A stretch of 43,792 nucleotides of DNA from a virus. Shown in pieces: positions 3,971-43,792 of this stretch (its first letter is position 1; the number at the start of each line of letters is the position of its first letter). The notes beneath the pieces were generated by a model. The model had not been told where the DNA came from. It did no database searches and worked only from the letters and a program-made list of their open reading frames with translations. The stretch spans positions 1-43,792 of IMG/VR virus record IMGVR_UViG_3300008450_000087; one strand, written 5' to 3'. A program made the translations under genes and the position numbers.

Positions 3971-4531
3971 TTACTCTAAAATTCCCCACTGATCCGCCAT
4001 CGCATCGGCGATCCCTTGGTACGTCCGCGACCGATTCTTCCAGCGCTCAGGGCCAGGCGGCATATGGTGAACAACCGGCGCACGACCATCGACAACATTG
4101 GTAGGAACAAGCAACGGCAATCCCTTAAGCCACAAGCATGTAGCCTTGGTTTCGCCATGACCGAACATCCAAGGCTGAATAATTTGATCAGGCTTGCGAA
4201 TCTTGCTGCTGATAACGCTGATCGGGTTTTCTAGAGCAATTCTCGGAATTGGAGCATCCAGCAAGAATTGAACAAAGTCCAAAGCAGCTCCCTGGCGACC
4301 GTCTGCAATCTTTTCCTTGAAGTGGCGAGCACCACTAACCGCAAGGTCAGTGCAAGGCGGATGGCAGATCATAAGATCCCATCCGTCATTGATAACGTCG
4401 CGCAAATCACCTTGATAGTGATTCCCGGGCTGTTCAGTCGGCAGCAGGTCGCAGCTCATAGCGTCGTGACCCATCGCTGCAAATGCTTCGCGCACACGGC
4501 CTGAGTATTCGCAGGCGATTAATACTTTCAT
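3971..4531 (-). CDS. Miniature cytosine-C5-methyltransferase-like protein
   Basis: 186 residues from ATG 4531 (GGAG upstream; ATGA overlap with the preceding gene). Residues 1-15 (MKVLIACEYSGRVRE) form the SAM-binding motif I strand and loop. HPPCTDLAVSGARHF at 57-71 is motif IV with the catalytic Pro-Cys (Cys60), and ALENP at 99-103 corresponds to the ENV motif. There is no room for the usual target-recognition domain and motifs IX-X: typical C5 methylases exceed 300 residues. It belongs to the short phage proteins annotated as DNA cytosine methyltransferase; activity and target are unproved. It may protect phage DNA or take part in base modification with the cassette at 12.4-15.0 kb. Confidence 0.7.
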   Translation of the reverse strand: MKVLIACEYSGRVREAFAAMGHDAMSCDLLPTEQPGNHYQGDLRDVINDGWDLMICHPPCTDLAVSGARHFKEKIADGRQGAALDFVQFLLDAPIPRIALENPISVISSKIRKPDQIIQPWMFGHGETKATCLWLKGLPLLVPTNVVDGRAPVVHHMPPGPERWKNRSRTYQGIADAMADQWGILE

Positions 4532-4716
4532 TCTGTATCTCCAATTAGCTGTTTTAGACATGGTTGTTCGCTAGCATACCTCTCAAGCCTAGCCTGATCC
4601 CGCTCAGACAGCGTATATGACGCCAGGTAGCGCTCTTTGATGCCTGATTGCTTGGCGATGGTGGCTAGTGGGTATCCTTCGCGGATGAGGGTGCGGATTA
4701 TTTCATTGGATGTCAT
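4528..4716 (-). CDS. Small HTH protein
   Basis: 62 residues, ATG 4716 with GAGA upstream. IREGYPLATIAKQSGIKERY is a clear helix-turn-helix (G-x-P-L-A-x-I-A, turn at SGI). It could be a small repressor or activator of the surrounding operon. It overlaps the coiled-coil gene upstream by 14 bases and the methylase gene by ATGA. Confidence 0.6.
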   Translation of the reverse strand: MTSNEIIRTLIREGYPLATIAKQSGIKERYLASYTLSERDQARLERYASEQPCLKQLIGDTE

Positions 4717-5300: not shown

Positions 5301-5503
5301 ACGTCACCCCGGCATTTTGCGATGATGGCGCGGGCCTTATGCTGTTGCGCAACGATTATGTAATACAAAACAGAGCTATCCGTTTTGGATACGTCTGTCT
5401 CTGCGATATCTGCCAGCGCCGCCAACAACTCATCCCGCTCGGCCAGCAGCGCGTCGTAGTCGGATGCGTAGACCAGACCATTAAACCGTTCAACCTGTTT
5501 CAT
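5297..5503 (-). CDS. Hypothetical small phage protein, first gene of the early operon
   Basis: 68 residues. ATG 5503 is chosen over GTG 5512 because GAGGGG lies at a workable distance only from the ATG. The YDALLAERDELLAALADIAE segment is a charged helix shared by many small phage proteins. It stands just downstream of a strong-looking promoter at 5541-5568. Confidence 0.6.
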   Translation of the reverse strand: MKQVERFNGLVYASDYDALLAERDELLAALADIAETDVSKTDSSVLYYIIVAQQHKARAIIAKCRGDV

Positions 5504-5540
5504 CTTCGTCACCCCTCATCCGGTCAATTCCCGTCTGGTG

Positions 5541-5568
5541 ATAGTAGCTTGTCTAGTGCAGTAGTCAA
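5541..5568 (-). promoter_or_regulatory. Sigma-70 promoter with CTAGACAA in the spacer (early class)
   Basis: Minus strand: -35 TTGACT (5563-5568), 16-base spacer, -10 TACTAT (5541-5546). The spacer carries CTAGACAA (5549-5556), the same octamer core found at the -35 of four other minus-strand promoters, which suggests a shared operator. It would transcribe the genes from 5503 leftwards. Confidence 0.6.
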
Positions 5569-5593
5569 TAGCTTTTGCGGTTATTTTTTACGG

Positions 5594-5885
5594 TCGGGAC
5601 AGGCGGCAATCAAGCGCCGGGACAGACACCCCTGTATATATACAGGGGGATGTCTTGTCCCAGCTGTGCCGTGGTAAAAAATACCAAACATTCTGGGACA
5701 AGCCTGGGACAAGCCTATTTTTGCGAAGGCTCTATTCCGCGCCTTCCAGCCTGGGACAAAAAAAGGTAAGCCGTTGTCCCAGCTTGTCCCATGTCCCAGC
5801 GTTCAATATAACGCACAAAACCTGGGACAAAACCTGGGACAAACACCCCTAAAAACAGGGTGTCTGGGACAATCGTTTTGTCCCA
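5594..5885. repeat. TGGGACAA iteron array
   Basis: Ten perfect and three partial octamers in about 290 bases, in both orientations, some spaced 10-12 bases apart (5694/5705, 5774/5784, 5823/5835), one helical turn. The arrangement indicates cooperative binding of a protein, either a phage initiator or the small HTH protein encoded at 7457-7642. Confidence 0.8.
5629..5648. repeat. Perfect 20-bp palindrome
   Basis: CCCCTGTATATATACAGGGG reads the same on both strands. It lies inside the iteron region and could be a dimeric-repressor operator or an unwinding element. Related half-sequence ACACCCCT recurs at 5843. Confidence 0.75.
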
Positions 5886-5950
5886 GTTTTCTGGTGTTTT
5901 GCTATTGGCTATTGATTGTTGATAGGTTTTTACTATCGTAGTGATTTGGC

Positions 5951-5977
5951 CATAAAAAAGCCCTATTGAAAGGGCTT
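5951..5977 (-). terminator. Rho-independent terminator after the helicase gene
   Basis: Stem AAGCCCT (5958-5964) / AGGGCTT (5971-5977), six-base loop, followed on the minus strand by a run of T. It lies 18 bases beyond the stop of the helicase gene and separates it from the iteron region. Confidence 0.8.
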
Positions 5978-5994
5978 AAGTTGTTGATTTACCG

Positions 5995-7467
5995 CTAGAA
6001 AACAGCTGCCCGCTCAATTACCCCTTCTGAGTCTATCGCAATCCAGCCATCCAGCACGAGTTGATCCATTGCGCGCCTGAATTGCTTGCGGGTTGTTTCG
6101 TTTTTTCCTCCGACTGCGTGAAAGAAACTGTCTTGTACGAAAGACTTCATGCACGATCCGCCGTTGCGCGATATCTCCTGGCCAATGATGTTGTTTACCG
6201 TGTTCGCGTGCCCGGTCAATTCTTGAGCCGCGCTGCTGCCGTCGCCAATGTTTACCGCTTTAGGGACAAGGCTAATCATGTCGCGCCCCTTTGCGTCTTT
6301 GCGCCCAATGTCTACGGCCTCCAGTTTAAAGTCTAGATCCTCTATCGGGTCGCTATCCTTTGCCTTGGTGCAGGTAAGTTTAGTGACCTTCTTGCCGCTG
6401 CTGACTACCTTGAACTCAAAGTCACACGCAGCACGCAGTGCAGACGAGCCACGGGCGCCCTTCTCGGCATCTTTGCCGCTGTGGTGTATCACTAGCACGG
6501 TAGCGCCTGTTTTCTCGCGTATACGGTCGCAGGCTTTGATAAAGCCGCCCATGTCTGACGCGCTGTTCTCGTCGCCGGCAAAGGATCGCGCCAGGGTGTC
6601 TATGACGACCAGCTTTACGTCCTGGCTGATTGAGTCGGCGGCCTGGTCGCACAACTCAATAAGGTGCTGGCATTCAATCGCAGCGTTGATCGTAACAGCG
6701 CTGCCGAGGATGCCTAGATTGGTGATCTGCTTATGATGGCGAATCTCCCATGCCTTTTTTCGCAGGTGAAGTCCTGACGCGCCCTCTGCTGCGATGTAGA
6801 TGACGTGCCCGCTGTTGTCCACGTCGCGGCCATGCCAGGCTATTGCCGAGGCGATGCTGGCGGCCATGTCGATGGCGATAAAGGATTTGTACGCGCCAGA
6901 CGGGCCAAAGATCACGCCGAAAGCGTCTGCCGGGATCACGCCGTCTATTAGCCATTGCTGGTTTGCGATCTGGTCAAGTGCTGAATCAGAGTCATAAGCA
7001 AGCCGGCGAAGAAACGGATTAAAGCCTTCTGCCTGTTCTGGCTGCGACTCTTCCAGCTCCTCAAGTTGACGGACGGCCCGCTCATGTACGGCGTGCGCCT
7101 CTGCCAGTTCCGCCAGGTCTGCGCTGGATAGCTCGGTTTTTGCAGCCTGCGCCGCTGCCAAATCGAAAATCAGTTTCGAGTGGTCAATAGCTGATCGCGC
7201 TGCCTGAATATCGTATTCGCGTCGGCGCTCTGGATTTAGTGAGTCGGCGAATAGATCGGAAAGGCGCAGGTCTACAGCCTCGACCACTTCTTGAGCCGAG
7301 CAGCCGGCAAAGCAGTGGACTAGAACGCGACTGTCCTTTTCCTCGATTGACAGGCAGTCATGTCCGCCATGCGCAGGGCACGAACACATATAGCCTTTGC
7401 CAGACTTCTTGACGCCATTGATACGAGACAGCAGTACGTCGATTGGTGCGCTGCCGTTAAATTTCAT
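5995..7467 (-). CDS. RepA-like hexameric helicase with zinc-binding N-terminus
   Basis: 490 residues from ATG 7467, whose ATGAAATTTAA overlaps the end of the HTH gene. Residues 28-56 hold five cysteines and a histidine (CSCPAHGGHDC, later HCFAGC), a CHC2/P4-alpha-type zinc domain. After a helical linker comes the AAA_25/RepA ATPase: Walker A GPSGAYKS at 188-195, Walker B KLVVID at 285-290, then VIHHSG at 326-331 and the arginine-containing GARGSSALR. Such proteins unwind DNA at origins and may also prime or load host primase; no TOPRIM primase domain is seen. The iteron region directly downstream and the lack of a phage polymerase suggest it opens the origin and recruits host replication proteins. 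Confidence 0.88.
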   Translation of the reverse strand: MKFNGSAPIDVLLSRINGVKKSGKGYMCSCPAHGGHDCLSIEEKDSRVLVHCFAGCSAQEVVEAVDLRLSDLFADSLNPERRREYDIQAARSAIDHSKLIFDLAAAQAAKTELSSADLAELAEAHAVHERAVRQLEELEESQPEQAEGFNPFLRRLAYDSDSALDQIANQQWLIDGVIPADAFGVIFGPSGAYKSFIAIDMAASIASAIAWHGRDVDNSGHVIYIAAEGASGLHLRKKAWEIRHHKQITNLGILGSAVTINAAIECQHLIELCDQAADSISQDVKLVVIDTLARSFAGDENSASDMGGFIKACDRIREKTGATVLVIHHSGKDAEKGARGSSALRAACDFEFKVVSSGKKVTKLTCTKAKDSDPIEDLDFKLEAVDIGRKDAKGRDMISLVPKAVNIGDGSSAAQELTGHANTVNNIIGQEISRNGGSCMKSFVQDSFFHAVGGKNETTRKQFRRAMDQLVLDGWIAIDSEGVIERAAVF

Positions 7468-7642
7468 CCGTGCGCGCTCCTTGCTTTTCCCACTCGGCCA
7501 GGTCGTCAATGTGCCAGCGGTTAAGTGTCCCGCACTTGCGCGGACGTGGGAATTTTCCGGCCTCGATCATCCGGTAGATGGTGCGCTCTGATAGCAGGTA
7601 TCGAAAGGAAACCTCCTTAACGTTGAGCATTATTTTCTGCAT
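7457..7642 (-). CDS. AlpA/excisionase-like HTH protein
   Basis: 61 residues from ATG 7642 with GGAG nearby. LNVKEVSFRYLLSERTIYRM, then IEAGKFPRPRK and RWHIDDLAEWEK, is the winged-helix pattern of AlpA, Xis and helix_turn_helix_17 proteins. No integrase is present, so a role as transcriptional regulator or as origin-binding protein for the helicase encoded next to it is more likely than excision. It overlaps the helicase start by 11 bases and faces the divergent helicase operon. Confidence 0.75.
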   Translation of the reverse strand: MQKIMLNVKEVSFRYLLSERTIYRMIEAGKFPRPRKCGTLNRWHIDDLAEWEKQGARTDEI

Positions 7643-7724
7643 ATCCACTCCTTGTTTTTCGTTGTCAGGCGTTGCCAAGGTGGGCAGCATACGTTACCTT
7701 GACGGCTCAATGAAAGGGGGCGAC
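7643..7724. promoter_or_regulatory. Divergent intergenic region between replication operons
   Basis: These 82 bases separate the minus-strand HTH-helicase operon from the plus-strand recombination operon and must hold promoters for one or both. A plus-strand candidate is TTGCCA (7672-7677), 17 bases, TACCTT (7695-7700), with a weak -10. No convincing minus-strand hexamers were found. Confidence 0.4.
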
Positions 7725-9518
7725 ATGAAAATAGCTTTACGCGACTATCAACAAGAAGTATTTGACAAGGTGATTGCTTACTTTCGATCACCGAAAGGCG
7801 CAGAGCCTGCAATCGTGGATATGTCGGTTGGCAGCGGGAAAACCGCGCTCGCTGCATTTCTTGCGCAGAACTCGGCAAGCAAGGGCGGGCGCGTGATGCT
7901 GATTGCGCGCCAGGGCGAGCTAGTACAGCAGGATGGCGAGTTTGCCGAGGCTATCGGTGTCAGCGTCAGCTATTACAGCAGCAGCCTTGGCGCGAAGTCG
8001 GTACGGCATAACACTATTATGGGCACCGAGGGTACGGTAGTTCGCTCGCTTGATTCAGCGTTTAAGGCATGGGCGCCTGATCTGATCCTTTGGGACGAGG
8101 CGCACCAGGGCGACTATGAGCGCGATGAATCCATGTTCATGAGGATCATGTCGCACTTCCAAACGCTAAACCCGAAAGCGCGCATTCTCGGCCTTACCGG
8201 CTCTCCGTTTCGCGGAACCGAAAGCATGATCGGAGACTTTTGGCGCGCGTGCATTGCGTCAATCTCGACTGAGTTCCTAATTGGCGAGGGCTGGTTGGTG
8301 CAGCCGCACTTCGGATGGCCTGAGCACGAGTCTGATTCGTTTGACTTTTCCATGCTTGAGCAGGAAAACGGCGGACTTGAATTTACTGATGAGCAGATGG
8401 ACAAGCTGCGCGCAGGCGATCCGACAAAGACAGAGCGGATCATGGCCGAGGTTGTTCATCGCACCGCTGACGACTTGGGCGTGCTGATCTTTGCGCAAAC
8501 CAAAAAGCATTGTCTTGAGATTGCCGGCGCATTGCCGCCAGGTAGCTGGGCGATTATCACCGACGAAACTCCAGACAAAGAGCGGGCCGCTTATATTGCA
8601 GGCGCAAAGACTGGCGCAATCAAGTACACGATCAACGTGGCGGTACTTACTACCGGCGTAGACGTTCCGTATTGGCAGTCAATCGTATACCTTCGCCCGG
8701 TCGGCTCGCTCGTGCTGCTGATTCAGTCTATCGGGCGAATCTTGCGCCTGCTGATCGAATCAGGAGCCGATATGAACGCATTAGATCGTGACGGGCGCCT
8801 GGCAGAGATTGCCGCAAGCCCTAAGCCGTTTTCGCGGGTGTATGACTATGCCGGCGTGATGGATCGCCTTGGCCACTTGTACGAAAACCCACTCCTAGCC
8901 CAAGCCCAGCTCGAAAAATCCAAGCGCGAAGGCTCGGTCATCTATTGCCCCGTGTGCAATGTCGAAAACTCAGACAAGGCCCGTCGCTGCATTGGAGTCG
9001 ATCACAAAGGCGTTCGCTGCGATCACTTTTGGCTTAGCCAGGATTGCCGAAAGTGCGGCGCAAAGAATGACGTAACAGCGCGCGATTGCCGTGTGTGTGG
9101 CGAGCAGTTGATTGACCCGAACGCCAAGCTGCTGCACAAGGCTTACACTGACACCGAGTTGGTAGCGGTCACCAAAATGGAAATGGAACCTACAAAAAAC
9201 GGCGGGCTGATTATCAAGTATGAACTTGAAGGCGAAAAGCCGGAGCACGGATGGCCTGTTGAGTTTTATTCTCCAGCAGGATCGCCGACGGCTAAGCGTG
9301 TTTGGTACAACAACTTTGTAAAGGCGCACGTCCGCACGAGCAAATGGCAGTCGCAGGTGTACGGCATGAAAACGGTTGCGGCCATCCTAAAGATGAAAGC
9401 TATGTTCAATAAGCCGACGCACATTGCTTACCGGATCAATGAAAAAGGAAAGTATGTGATAGGGCGCCGACGATTCAATGACGGCATGACCACAAACGAA
9501 AAAGGCGAGCGGGAATGA
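7725..9518 (+). CDS. Superfamily II DNA helicase (DEAH) with C-terminal zinc fingers
   Basis: 597 residues. ATG 7725 is chosen because AGGGGG lies just upstream and the family motifs start at once (RDYQQEVFDKV). Motif I VGSGKTA at 35-41, motif II DEAH at 124-127, motif III LTGSPFRG at 157-164, motif VI QSIGRILR at 334-341. After the helicase core, residues ~408-460 hold CPVC, CRKC and CRVCG pairs, one or two zinc ribbons probably for DNA binding. It is the type of helicase found beside RecE-like nucleases in siphovirus recombination/replication modules. Its stop overlaps the next gene by four bases. Confidence 0.88.
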   Translation: MKIALRDYQQEVFDKVIAYFRSPKGAEPAIVDMSVGSGKTALAAFLAQNSASKGGRVMLIARQGELVQQDGEFAEAIGVSVSYYSSSLGAKSVRHNTIMGTEGTVVRSLDSAFKAWAPDLILWDEAHQGDYERDESMFMRIMSHFQTLNPKARILGLTGSPFRGTESMIGDFWRACIASISTEFLIGEGWLVQPHFGWPEHESDSFDFSMLEQENGGLEFTDEQMDKLRAGDPTKTERIMAEVVHRTADDLGVLIFAQTKKHCLEIAGALPPGSWAIITDETPDKERAAYIAGAKTGAIKYTINVAVLTTGVDVPYWQSIVYLRPVGSLVLLIQSIGRILRLLIESGADMNALDRDGRLAEIAASPKPFSRVYDYAGVMDRLGHLYENPLLAQAQLEKSKREGSVIYCPVCNVENSDKARRCIGVDHKGVRCDHFWLSQDCRKCGAKNDVTARDCRVCGEQLIDPNAKLLHKAYTDTELVAVTKMEMEPTKNGGLIIKYELEGEKPEHGWPVEFYSPAGSPTAKRVWYNNFVKAHVRTSKWQSQVYGMKTVAAILKMKAMFNKPTHIAYRINEKGKYVIGRRRFNDGMTTNEKGERE

Positions 9519-13810: not shown

Positions 13811-15019
13811 ATGCCAAAGAAAGGGTTAGGGCTTAGCGTTTTTGACGCAGCAAAAGAGAGAATTGCTTTTACGTTTGATCACTTTGATCGCGTATATTTG
13901 TCGTTTAGCGCTGGTAAGGATTCAACCGTAATGCTGCATATGGTGGCCGCCGAAGCTAGAGAGCGAGGGCGAACAATTGGCGTGCTAATGATCGACTGGG
14001 AGTGCCAGATAGGCCTAACGATTGATTTTGCGCGCAACATGCTTGATGAGTATTCAGACGTTATCGTGCCGTACTGGGTTGCGCTTCCAATGAAGACTTG
14101 GAACGCATGTAGCCAGATAGAGCCAGAGTGGACGGCGTGGGATCCTGACAAAAAGGATTTATGGGTTCGCCAGCCTGATAAATCCAGCATTACAGATGAG
14201 TCGTTTTTCCCGTTCTATTACACTGGCATGCCATTTGAGGAATTTACGCCAGCGTTTGCGCAGTGGTATGCAGAAGGCAAGTCATGCGCATGCTTCGTCG
14301 GTATCCGCGCAGACGAAAGCCTAAACCGTTTTCGCGCAATTGCGCGCGATGACAAGCCAACTTTTATGGGTAAACAGTGGACTACGCAGGTAGAAGGAAT
14401 CGCATGGAACGTATACCCAATCTACGACTGGAAGACAAAGGACATTTGGCGGTTTCATGGCAAGACGGGGCTTGAATACAATCGACTGTATGATCGGATG
14501 CACCAAGCCGGCATGAAGATCAGTCAAATGCGCATTTGCGAGCCGTTCGGTGATGAGGCGCGCAAAGGTCTATGGCTGTATCAGATTGTTGATCCGGCCA
14601 TGTGGGCAAAAGTAGTTTTGCGCTGCGCAGGTGCTAACACCGGAAAGATGTACAGCCAGGAAAAAGGCGCCATCATGGGAAACCACAGCATCGCGCTTCC
14701 AGAAGGCCACACTTTCGAGAGCTTTGCTCGACACATTTTGCGCACCATGCCAAAGCCAACCGCCGAGCATTACAAGAACAAGCTGGCGGTGTATCTCAAG
14801 TGGTGGAGCAAGCGCGGCTATCCAGACGGCATACCAGACTCTGCTGACAAGTCGCTAGAGAGTCGCGGAAAGGTGCCAACCTGGCGAAAGGTTGTAAAGA
14901 CATTCCTGAAGAATGACTACTGGTGCAAAGGCCTTGGATTTAGCCCGACAAAAAGCACCGCTTATCAGAGGTACTGCGAGCTAATGAAGCGGCGACGAGC
15001 AGAGTGGAATAATATTTAG
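13811..15019 (+). CDS. ibrA: IbrA-like PAPS-reductase-family protein (DUF3440)
   Basis: 402 residues, starting one base after the GNAT stop. The PP-loop of the adenine-nucleotide alpha-hydrolase superfamily is clear: SFSAGKDSTVML at 31-42. CACFVGIRADESLNRF (about residue 160) is the second substrate-binding block of the family, and WKTKDIWRF follows. The C-terminal ~150 residues are the DUF3440 part that separates IbrA from true PAPS reductases. The family activates a substrate by adenylation; DndC and TtcA relatives use this for sulfur insertion in DNA or RNA. It ends at a strong terminator and is the last gene of the plus-strand operon. Confidence 0.88.
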   Translation: MPKKGLGLSVFDAAKERIAFTFDHFDRVYLSFSAGKDSTVMLHMVAAEARERGRTIGVLMIDWECQIGLTIDFARNMLDEYSDVIVPYWVALPMKTWNACSQIEPEWTAWDPDKKDLWVRQPDKSSITDESFFPFYYTGMPFEEFTPAFAQWYAEGKSCACFVGIRADESLNRFRAIARDDKPTFMGKQWTTQVEGIAWNVYPIYDWKTKDIWRFHGKTGLEYNRLYDRMHQAGMKISQMRICEPFGDEARKGLWLYQIVDPAMWAKVVLRCAGANTGKMYSQEKGAIMGNHSIALPEGHTFESFARHILRTMPKPTAEHYKNKLAVYLKWWSKRGYPDGIPDSADKSLESRGKVPTWRKVVKTFLKNDYWCKGLGFSPTKSTAYQRYCELMKRRRAEWNNI

Positions 15020-15050: not shown

Positions 15051-15214
15051 TACTGCTTTGGCTTATCCTTGCCGTATCTCGACGCCAGCACGTTATAAAT
15101 CGACTGCAATGCGCCGATCTTGCCGAGCCATGCAGGCGTGCCGATGATAGCCGCGACGTGCGGCATGATGGCTAGGATGGTGCCAGCGGTTACCATTACT
15201 GTCTCGATGTTCAT
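15050..15214 (-). CDS. 54-residue hydrophobic protein downstream of lysozyme
   Basis: ATG 15214 overlaps the lysozyme stop (ATGA, 15211-15214); TAA at 15050. The N-terminal ~35 residues are hydrophobic (TVMVTAGTILAIMPHVAAII) and the last ten are basic (RYGKDKPKQ), consistent with one membrane span and a cytoplasmic basic tail. Coupling to lysozyme suggests a lysis function (pinholin, antiholin or spanin-like), but the true holin candidate is at 41307-41630. Confidence 0.65.
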   Translation of the reverse strand: MNIETVMVTAGTILAIMPHVAAIIGTPAWLGKIGALQSIYNVLASRYGKDKPKQ

Positions 15215-15645
15215 TTGTCGCCCTCAAATAGTCGTTTCTCGGCTTCGCGCCGCTTAGTTAAACCTGGCAGCACCTTGCCACCAGCCTTATTCCATCGGGC
15301 GAACTCATTGGCCGCGCCCGCAATGTCGCCGGCTTTCAGTTTTGCGGCAAGCGTAGATTCTCGCAGCGCACCGAGGCCAACGTTAAACGCAAAGCTCACC
15401 AAGGCGTCAAATTGGCCCTGCGTTAGCGATTGCTTGATAACCTCATGCACGCCTACCTCAAAGCGCGCTAGATCGTCCAGCAGCAGGCGCTCGGCCTCTT
15501 GCGCGGTAATCGCCATGCCGGGCTTGACGTGCGCCCCGGTGCTGCCGTATCCGATGGTCAGAACGCCGGCAGGGCATTTGTAGGCAGTAAGTCGCAAGCC
15601 TTCAAACTGTTTTATGACTGCTAGGCCTTTTGGGCTGATTTTCAT
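15211..15645 (-). CDS. Lysozyme (endolysin, GH24)
   Basis: 144 residues, close to the usual length of phage muramidases without a signal anchor. Residues Glu15 (KQFEGLRLTAY), Cys24 and Thr30 keep the E-8-x-5-T spacing of the T4/P1 family; position two of the triad is Cys, as in P1 Lyz, rather than Asp as in T4. GYGSTGAH and FDALVSFAFNVG are further family signatures. No N-terminal membrane or signal segment, so release needs a holin. A near-perfect sigma-54-type element ends three bases upstream of the start codon; another start further in is not plausible because the family sequence begins at residue 2. Confidence 0.93.
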   Translation of the reverse strand: MKISPKGLAVIKQFEGLRLTAYKCPAGVLTIGYGSTGAHVKPGMAITAQEAERLLLDDLARFEVGVHEVIKQSLTQGQFDALVSFAFNVGLGALRESTLAAKLKAGDIAGAANEFARWNKAGGKVLPGLTKRREAEKRLFEGDK

Positions 15646-15768: not shown

Positions 15769-16350
15769 ATGAACCACGAAGAATTGATGGCAGTCGCAGA
15801 GTCGCACGGAGAATGGCTGCGTAATGATGATTGCGGATCACGCGCTGACCTGTACGACGCTGACCTGTACGGCGCTAACCTGCGCGGCGCTAACCTGCGC
15901 GGCGCTGACCTGCGCGGCGCTAACCTGAGCGGCGCTAACCTGCGCGGCGCTAACCTGAGCGGCGCTAACCTGCGCGGCGCTGACCTGCGCGGCGCTGACC
16001 TGCGCGGCGCTAACCTGCGCGACGCTAACCTGAGCGGCGCTAACCTGCGCGGCGCTGACCTGAGCGGCGCTAACCTGCGCGGCGCTGACCTGCGGTGCAT
16101 GGGCAACCTAAATAACATTAAAACAATCCAAGCAGACCTCTGGCAAATTGGTTACACGCACGACACGATGCAGATTGGCTGCCAGCGACATTTGATTGCT
16201 GAATGGTGGGCATTTTCTGATCCGGAAATATCAAGCATGGACGCGCGGGCTCTTGCTTGGTGGGCAGTATGGAAGCCTATTTTGCAGGCGATGATTGCAG
16301 CTTCTCCGGCCGAGCCGACTGGGTATGTTGAGAAGGATAAGCGGAAATGA
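15769..16350 (+). CDS. Pentapeptide-repeat protein
   Basis: 193 residues; ATG 15769 with AGGAG upstream. Residues ~26-110 are about 17 tandem A(D/N)L-x-x pentapeptides ([15 protein letters not shown]), which fold as a right-handed quadrilateral beta-helix. The C-terminal ~75 residues ([20 protein letters not shown]) are a separate helical domain typical of phage members. Qnr/MfpA proteins of this fold mimic DNA and bind gyrase; a similar DNA mimic could protect the phage against host defence or topoisomerase attack, but this is inference. The DNA repeats are nearly identical (15-base units), suggesting recent expansion. Confidence 0.88.
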
Positions 16351-43222: not shown

Positions 43223-43792
43223 TTATTTTAGCATTTCAGGATGCACAGTGTGACGCGCGACCTCGCCGTATTCACGGTGCAGAACAACGCACTTCATATT
43301 CTCACGCGAACGCCAGCCGCCAGCAGTCGCATAAGCATCACCAGGCGCAAGGGTATTGAAGCTCTCAACCGTGCAGCCTGGATACTCCTTCTTGCTTTCG
43401 TGATGCACATGGCCAGTCCACCACATGCGGTGCTTTGTGCGGCCCCAGGCTTGCGGCTGGTCTGCTGCCATTACCTGCCCAAGCCGGTCAGCTTTGCATG
43501 TATGGCCGTGATGAGTGCCGACAAGCGAATTGCCAAACTCAAAATAGGTAAACAATGCGGGGCTGATATCAACCGTTACGCGCGGCTCGTTTTCGTAGAT
43601 ATGGCTAAGCGCAGTGGATAGCCAGAGTGCGCCCGTCTCGTCGTGGTTGCCCGGCACGTTAATGATGTGCACGCTCTTGTGCTTTGTTAGTGCCGTCTCG
43701 ATGCACTGGCGGATCACTTTGACCAATACGCGAACCATCTTGGCGTAACGGCTGTCGGCATCCAAATGGTGCCCGCTGCGAGGAGTAACAGC
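43223..43792 (-). CDS. Metallophosphoesterase, C-terminal part (runs off the window end)
   Basis: Continuation of the gene whose start is at 660. On the circular unit this part is 43223-43678; 43679-43792 duplicates 1-114. Motifs seen here are NVPGNHDE (GNHD), GTHHGHTCK and TGHVHHE, the metal-binding and catalytic histidines of calcineurin-like enzymes. TAA at 43223. The stop codon overlaps the AT-rich part of the next promoter. Confidence 0.88.
   Translation of the reverse strand, partial: AVTPRSGHHLDADSRYAKMVRVLVKVIRQCIETALTKHKSVHIINVPGNHDETGALWLSTALSHIYENEPRVTVDISPALFTYFEFGNSLVGTHHGHTCKADRLGQVMAADQPQAWGRTKHRMWWTGHVHHESKKEYPGCTVESFNTLAPGDAYATAGGWRSRENMKCVVLHREYGEVARHTVHPEMLK
43679..43792. 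repeat. Terminal direct repeat, right copy
   Basis: Identical to 1-114; see the left copy. Joining the two restores a continuous 371-residue metallophosphoesterase frame. Confidence 0.95.

Follow-up and report, generated by a model that had tools for sequence, protein, structure and literature searches.

The helicase initiators SaPI Rep and SCCmec Cch2 have iterons directly downstream of the genes that encode them (PMC7581432). In pRN1, the replication helicase ORF904 carries a C-terminal winged helix and an essential stem-loop lies directly 3' of its gene; this stem-loop is poorly conserved in sequence and well conserved in structure, and phages with similar stem-loops have been noted (PMC4234260). 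The alpha protein of phage P4 combines a helicase with a primase and an origin-binding winged helix, together with short repeats (PMC4234260), and for primase-helicases, some of them of the RepA type, the authors of work on the PrimQH family suggested that the C-terminal winged helix might recognise the origin (PMC5862659).

The DNA analysed here, referred to as the window, is a stretch of 43,792 nucleotides (IMG/VR record IMGVR_UViG_3300008450_000087) with the appearance of a whole phage genome, in which terminase, portal and tail genes are present. A 114-bp direct terminal repeat (1-114 and 43679-43792) suggests that the genome is circularly permuted or complete. Among the genes outside the region of interest are those for a DNA methyltransferase family protein (3971-4561, minus strand; phrog_757), for a phosphoadenosine phosphosulfate reductase-like protein with DUF3440 (13811-15019, plus strand; IbrA-like), which is of a metabolic or host-takeover type, and for a 193-residue pentapeptide-repeat protein (15769-16350, plus strand) adjoining a phage lysozyme gene (15211-15645, minus strand); the pentapeptide-repeat fold is known for DNA mimicry. 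The stretch that holds the repeat array is bounded by a helicase gene (end at 5995) and a small minus-strand ORF (start at or before 5512), and the features of this region are as follows.

5536-5592: AT-rich flank on the distal side, 39% GC (base composition)
5596-5885: iteron array of 13 GGGACA copies, ten of them as TGGGACAA, in both orientations (motif counts)
GGGACA copies on the plus strand: 5596, 5619, 5695, 5706, 5753, 5824, 5836, 5866
GGGACA copies on the minus strand: 5656, 5775, 5785, 5792, 5879
5619-5661: distal dyad made up of a plus iteron (5619-5624), the palindrome and a minus iteron (5656-5661), laid out as the CCCTWWAGGG dyads of relatives
5629-5648: perfect 20-bp palindrome CCCCTGTATATATACAGGGG (palindrome scan, shuffles)
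5886-5955: AT-rich flank between the array and the helicase terminator, 34% GC (base composition)
5958-5977, minus strand: intrinsic-terminator-like hairpin directly 3' of the helicase gene, distinct from the array palindrome
5995-7467, minus strand: replicative helicase of the RSF1010-RepA type (sequence and structure match)
5998-6240, minus strand: C-terminal winged-helix domain, residues 410-490, the putative iteron reader
6052-6099, minus strand: recognition helix within the winged helix, residues 457-472
6073-6075 and 6085-6087, minus strand: recognition-helix codons for R465 and K461, respectively
6253-6975, minus strand: helicase core, residues 165-405 (AAA_25, E 1.9e-39)
7457-7642, minus strand: small HTH_17/AlpA-like protein (profile match), ruled out as the reader of array specificity
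7725-9518, plus strand: divergent DEAD/ResIII-type helicase (profile match)

A first-pass annotation of this DNA had described ten exact octamers in both orientations, a 20-bp palindrome and AT-rich flanks beside a RepA-like helicase, all of which were borne out. The octamer TGGGACAA occurs ten times, six on the plus and four on the minus strand, always inside 5655-5885 and nowhere else in the 43.8-kb genome, compared with a whole-window expectation of 0.9 and a maximum of 4 in 100 shuffles, and the flanks stand against a genome GC content of 54%. The flank at 5886-5955 is a possible unwinding region. The array is somewhat bigger than the ten octamers, because CGGGACAG at 5595 and 5618 and TGGGACAT at 5791-5798 also belong to it; its 13 copies of the GGGACA core span 5596-5884, with four others elsewhere in the window. 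The start-to-start distances between them (23, 37, 39, 11, 47, 22, 10, 7, 32, 12, 30 and 13) limit the spacing of one helical turn, also part of that description, to some of the copies. The octamer had further been called unlike known iterons; no paper describing it was found in the open-licence literature, but the motif is common in phages, since TGGGACAA triplets are present in at least 119 IMG/VR stretches, many of which carry single-strand copies only and have no recognised helicase. At two of these triplet loci (L010 and L112) and at others, GGGACA arrays accompany only a distantly related helicase or none that was recognised, and may be either more origins or repeats within genes. The array region had no Rfam match, on which ground an RNA element was rejected. 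Classical plasmid iteron origins have longer direct repeats (17-22 bp) and DnaA boxes, whereas the repeats of the window measure 7-9 bp in both orientations and no DnaA box of the form TTWTNCACA was found in it, so that an origin of this kind was rejected as well.

The helicase encoded at 5995-7467 consists of an N-terminus similar in sequence to the zinc finger of a phage primase (phrog_6088), a RecA-fold core and a C-terminal winged helix. The core is closest to that of RSF1010 RepA, a hexameric helicase, both in sequence (hmmsearch, E 1.3e-9) and in structure, RSF1010 RepA being its best match in the PDB (Z 15.2, 189 residues, rmsd 3.1). RSF1010 RepA covers residues 188-410 of the model only, and the window protein has about 80 residues more, which are predicted to fold as a winged helix (pLDDT 85.7). 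Fold searches with this domain returned numerous unrelated winged helices with comparable Z, so that it cannot be assigned to a family from its fold. BLASTN of 5400-7700 and TBLASTN of the 7457-7642 protein gave no match to named phages. A DEAD/ResIII-type helicase gene is found at this position, likewise divergent, in L128-L132, L135, L137 and L143.

The window shares with SaPI Rep and Cch2 a helicase with a C-terminal DNA-binding domain, which in the window is predicted, and short repeats directly 3' of it. However, the helicases of SaPI Rep, Cch and Cch2 are D5/MCM-like AAA+ proteins (PMC7581432 and general knowledge), whereas the core in the window is an AAA_25 domain of the RecA-fold RepA type, and the Cch2 iteron is AAGTG in three copies as opposed to 13 copies of GGGACA (PMC7581432). 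The oriV of RSF1010 (RepA, RepB', RepC and the ssiA and ssiB hairpins; PMC4234260) has the same helicase type as the window and likewise combines iterons with hairpins, but its iterons are read by a separate protein, RepC, and its RepA is devoid of a C-terminal winged helix, whereas the putative reader of the window is fused to the helicase. pRN1 differs in having an SF3 helicase, an archaeal-type primase, no iterons and a stem-loop of about 100 nt, compared with a RepA-type helicase, iterons and a smaller structure, a 20-bp palindrome inside a 43-bp dyad, in the window. The alpha protein of phage P4 has another type of helicase and another repeat, its likeness to the window being one of description only. 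The background on P4 alpha and its ori is in part textbook knowledge. Some PrimQH family AEP primases have the domain order of the window protein, with a RepA/DnaB-type helicase and a C-terminal winged helix, and the excerpted text describes no iterons, specificity rule or dyad for them (PMC5862659). Two proteins of the same name were discarded as comparators: the RepA of mycobacteriophage prophage origins is a different protein, a plasmid-type initiator of 320-350 residues for which its authors found no iterons (PMC7157519), and the RepA of the Vibrio PLE satellites belongs to the RepA_N proteins and is distinct from the window helicase (PMC7145576).

Arrays with repeats in both orientations were found directly 3' of the helicase gene in 11 of 11 close viral relatives. 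The second set of helicase relatives had a 3' array in 49 of 77 cases, a count not pooled with the first as it includes ten first-set contigs again (viral set L139-L148), and the hold-out set in 57 of 78, the other 21 loci not reaching the pass mark, so that not every relative has a detectable array. In none of the three sets was an array detected on the 5' side (0/9, 0/64 and 0/69, respectively). The letters of the repeat vary by phage (GGGACA, GAAACA as in L128, GTTACA as in L131, GTCACA as in L132, GCAACC); those of the close relatives read CGGGACA, GGGGACA, CGAAACA, AGTTACAT and TGGTCACA, with TGCAACC in one further relative. The common form is GNNACA, in which NN is altered throughout the whole array. 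Among named phages, a 3' array is present in HK578, Salicola CGphi29, Alteromonas XX1924, Roseobacter CRP-831 and ST231, and none was found 3' of the helicase in K1G, phi673, Caulobacter RW, KayaCho or Vibrio 1244. Escherichia phage HK578 (NC_019724), a laboratory phage, has seven copies of GCGGGACA, whose flank differs from that of the window, immediately 3' of the gene for its replicative helicase-primase; neither this nor the other named-phage records fetched annotate the array. The array of Alteromonas phage XX1924 (L307) is built on GTGAACCA/TGGTTCAC, a repeat that we take to resemble that of the phage P4 origin.

Across these loci the repeat letters track the C-terminal winged helix, and neither the helicase core nor the neighbouring HTH protein. 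L131 and L135, with cores 81% and winged helices 86% identical, have the same array, and L130 and L132, with cores 85% and winged helices 46% identical, have different ones, as is true of pairs in which 82-85% identical cores are combined with winged helices of only 45-46% identity. Partial Mantel tests on 47 non-redundant loci gave a correlation of motif with winged helix given the core (r = 0.33, p = 0.0005), compared with r = 0.005 (p = 0.44) for motif with core given the winged helix. From this co-variation and the modelled fold, we infer that the winged helix of the helicase is the probable reader of the iterons.

Two residues of the recognition helix, 461 and 465, predict the repeat letters at the level of sequence. 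In the first set, residue 461 was K, R or Q when G precedes ACA, and T, V, M, A or S when another base stands there, and this rule was written down before 80 newly fetched loci were examined as a hold-out. The rule held there: K/R/Q occurred at 461 in 21 loci with the G and in 0 without it, compared with 1 and 3 for other residues (p = 0.0017); the hold-out is new sequence from the same family, retrieved by means of an alignment containing members of the first set, and before the redundancy filter a few of its members were near copies of first-set loci. R465 goes with ACA in the hold-out (p = 1.2e-4), a link that lay outside the written prediction. The split of K/R from Q was noticed while reading the hold-out, with no prior prediction, and was tallied afterwards for the two sets: K/R at 461 accompanies GGACA in 18/18 hold-out loci and 22/22 overall, and Q accompanies [TA]GACA in 3/3 and 5/5, respectively, residues other than these being mostly associated with a non-G base. 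On the core tree, motif class differed in 11 of 12 edge-disjoint pairs differing at residue 461 and in 0 of 9 same-class pairs (Fisher test, p = 3.4e-5). L332 and L243 are exceptions to the code; residue alignment and motif calls were automatic, and some calls of "no ACA" are threshold effects (e.g. L130).

The palindrome CCCCTGTATATATACAGGGG was not equalled in length in any of 20 shuffles. In the arrays of relatives, CCCTWWAGGG is present in 32 of 91 (0.1 expected; control stretches 0/84) and the shorter YCTWWAGR in 49 of 91 (1.9 expected), figures in which the shuffle and control comparison constitutes the evidence rather than the count, because the pattern was defined on the loci where it was counted. 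These sites almost always lie amid two iterons of opposite orientation, close to centred. The window dyad has the same layout with TGTATATATACA at its centre instead of CTWWAG, and in six close relatives pairing is kept while 7 of 14 pairs have changed on both sides, from which it follows that the symmetry is conserved; it may serve to form a hairpin or to present a protein with a two-fold site. That the palindrome is the terminator of the helicase gene was rejected, as there is a separate terminator-like hairpin and the palindrome has no T run. In Burkholderia phage BcepGomr (L301), AAAATA-rich repeats 3' of the helicase surround CTCCCCTTTAGGGGAG, so that a similar dyad is accompanied there by an AT-rich repeat.

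Since repeats adjoin the helicase gene as with SaPI Rep and Cch2, and pRN1 has a winged-helix replication helicase followed by an essential stem-loop, we interpret the array as the probable replication origin of the phage, read by the adjacent helicase through its own winged helix, to which we assign a probability of roughly 0.8. The earlier proposal of an origin with cooperative initiator binding is thereby retained in part: the position 3' of the helicase, the co-variation with the winged helix, the conserved dyad and, weakly, the skew speak for it, whereas its suggestion of the HTH protein as the binder does not stand. The distance from the array centre is 0.7 kb for the cumulative GC-skew minimum of the window and 0.1 kb for its keto-skew minimum, which falls inside the array, and GC-skew minima lie 0.7-2.7 kb from the array in four genomes. 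These minima fall where the genes switch direction, and in HK578 and XX1924 they are weak; skew, which agrees with the array but is confounded by gene direction, was set aside as evidence of location.

According to the mechanism we propose, the RepA-type helicase would bind every GGGACA site through its C-terminal winged helix, with R465 at the ACA end and K461 at GG, contacts suggested by the co-variation. The many bound copies would collect helicase molecules, and the inverted iterons around the palindrome would position a pair of oppositely directed helicase rings on the short TA-rich centre. The strands would open at this centre and be primed both ways, as the symmetry and the precedents of SaPI, pRN1 and RSF1010 suggest. 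The array and the winged helix, which co-vary, would be exchanged or evolve together, so that the origins of related phages would differ in specificity, a presumed biological advantage.

The small HTH_17/AlpA-like protein, originally put forward as the binder of the array, belongs to a DNA-binding family and its gene adjoins that of the helicase, but a double dissociation makes it a barely credible reader: L130 and L131 have HTH proteins 98% identical and different arrays, L131 and L135 have HTH proteins only 40% identical and an array in common, and the arrays persist in L128, L129 and L137, where another small HTH gene takes that place. It is also conceivable, though decidedly improbable, that motif and winged helix co-vary merely as neighbours swapped by recombination and that another protein reads the array. 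Because the code for the winged helix, at the 3' end of the gene, physically adjoins the array, part of the co-variation could indeed be joint inheritance; as a full account this is made less likely by the held-out residue-base rule, in which single recognition-helix residues predict bases across distant lineages and out of sample, whereas linkage by itself gives no reason to expect GG where the residue is K/R, or TG/AG where it is Q.

If the helicase does bind the array, the latter might still be mainly an operator or a copy-number control of the helicase operon, with replication starting elsewhere. Iterons frequently double as control sites, and the support of skew for the location of the origin is weak; nevertheless we consider this unlikely, since the array is situated on the 3' side of the helicase gene, past the terminator-like hairpin at 5958-5977, no promoter-like site above chance was found, the conserved dyad would be left unexplained, and the specifically binding helicases SaPI Rep and Cch2 are initiators (PMC7581432). 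A partition centromere, a packaging site or a recombination site seems highly improbable given that the array adjoins the helicase and co-varies with a domain of it and that a limited test found no ParA/ParB-like gene among the neighbours scanned. Short repeats in both orientations may, however, also be found at such sites.

We know of no described origin for most tailed phages. Helicase-read iteron origins as such are already known; what appears to be new here is the RSF1010-RepA type of the helicase, whose winged helix is re-targetable and follows a simple residue-base rule, together with the shared dyad. No description of the repeat, of the dyad or of phage helicases with downstream iterons was found in the open-licence papers searched, though one elsewhere is possible, and the combination of an RSF1010-type helicase, a fused iteron reader and its DNA site is undescribed in that literature. 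We lean slightly towards the view that the window represents a widespread class of phage origins, in which the winged helix of a RepA-type helicase would select its own downstream iterons, the two variable bases being specified by residue 461 and the ACA end by residue 465, and in which a specificity-independent CCCTWWAGGG dyad would load two helicases in opposite directions. If this is true, origin specificity would be predictable from protein sequence and would have been re-assigned many times in evolution; the helicase gene would locate the predicted origin, and two residues would predict the letters read. The naturally re-targeted helicase/iteron pairs would provide a ready test set for the evolution of initiator specificity, and would allow one to ask whether co-infecting phages avoid each other's origins.
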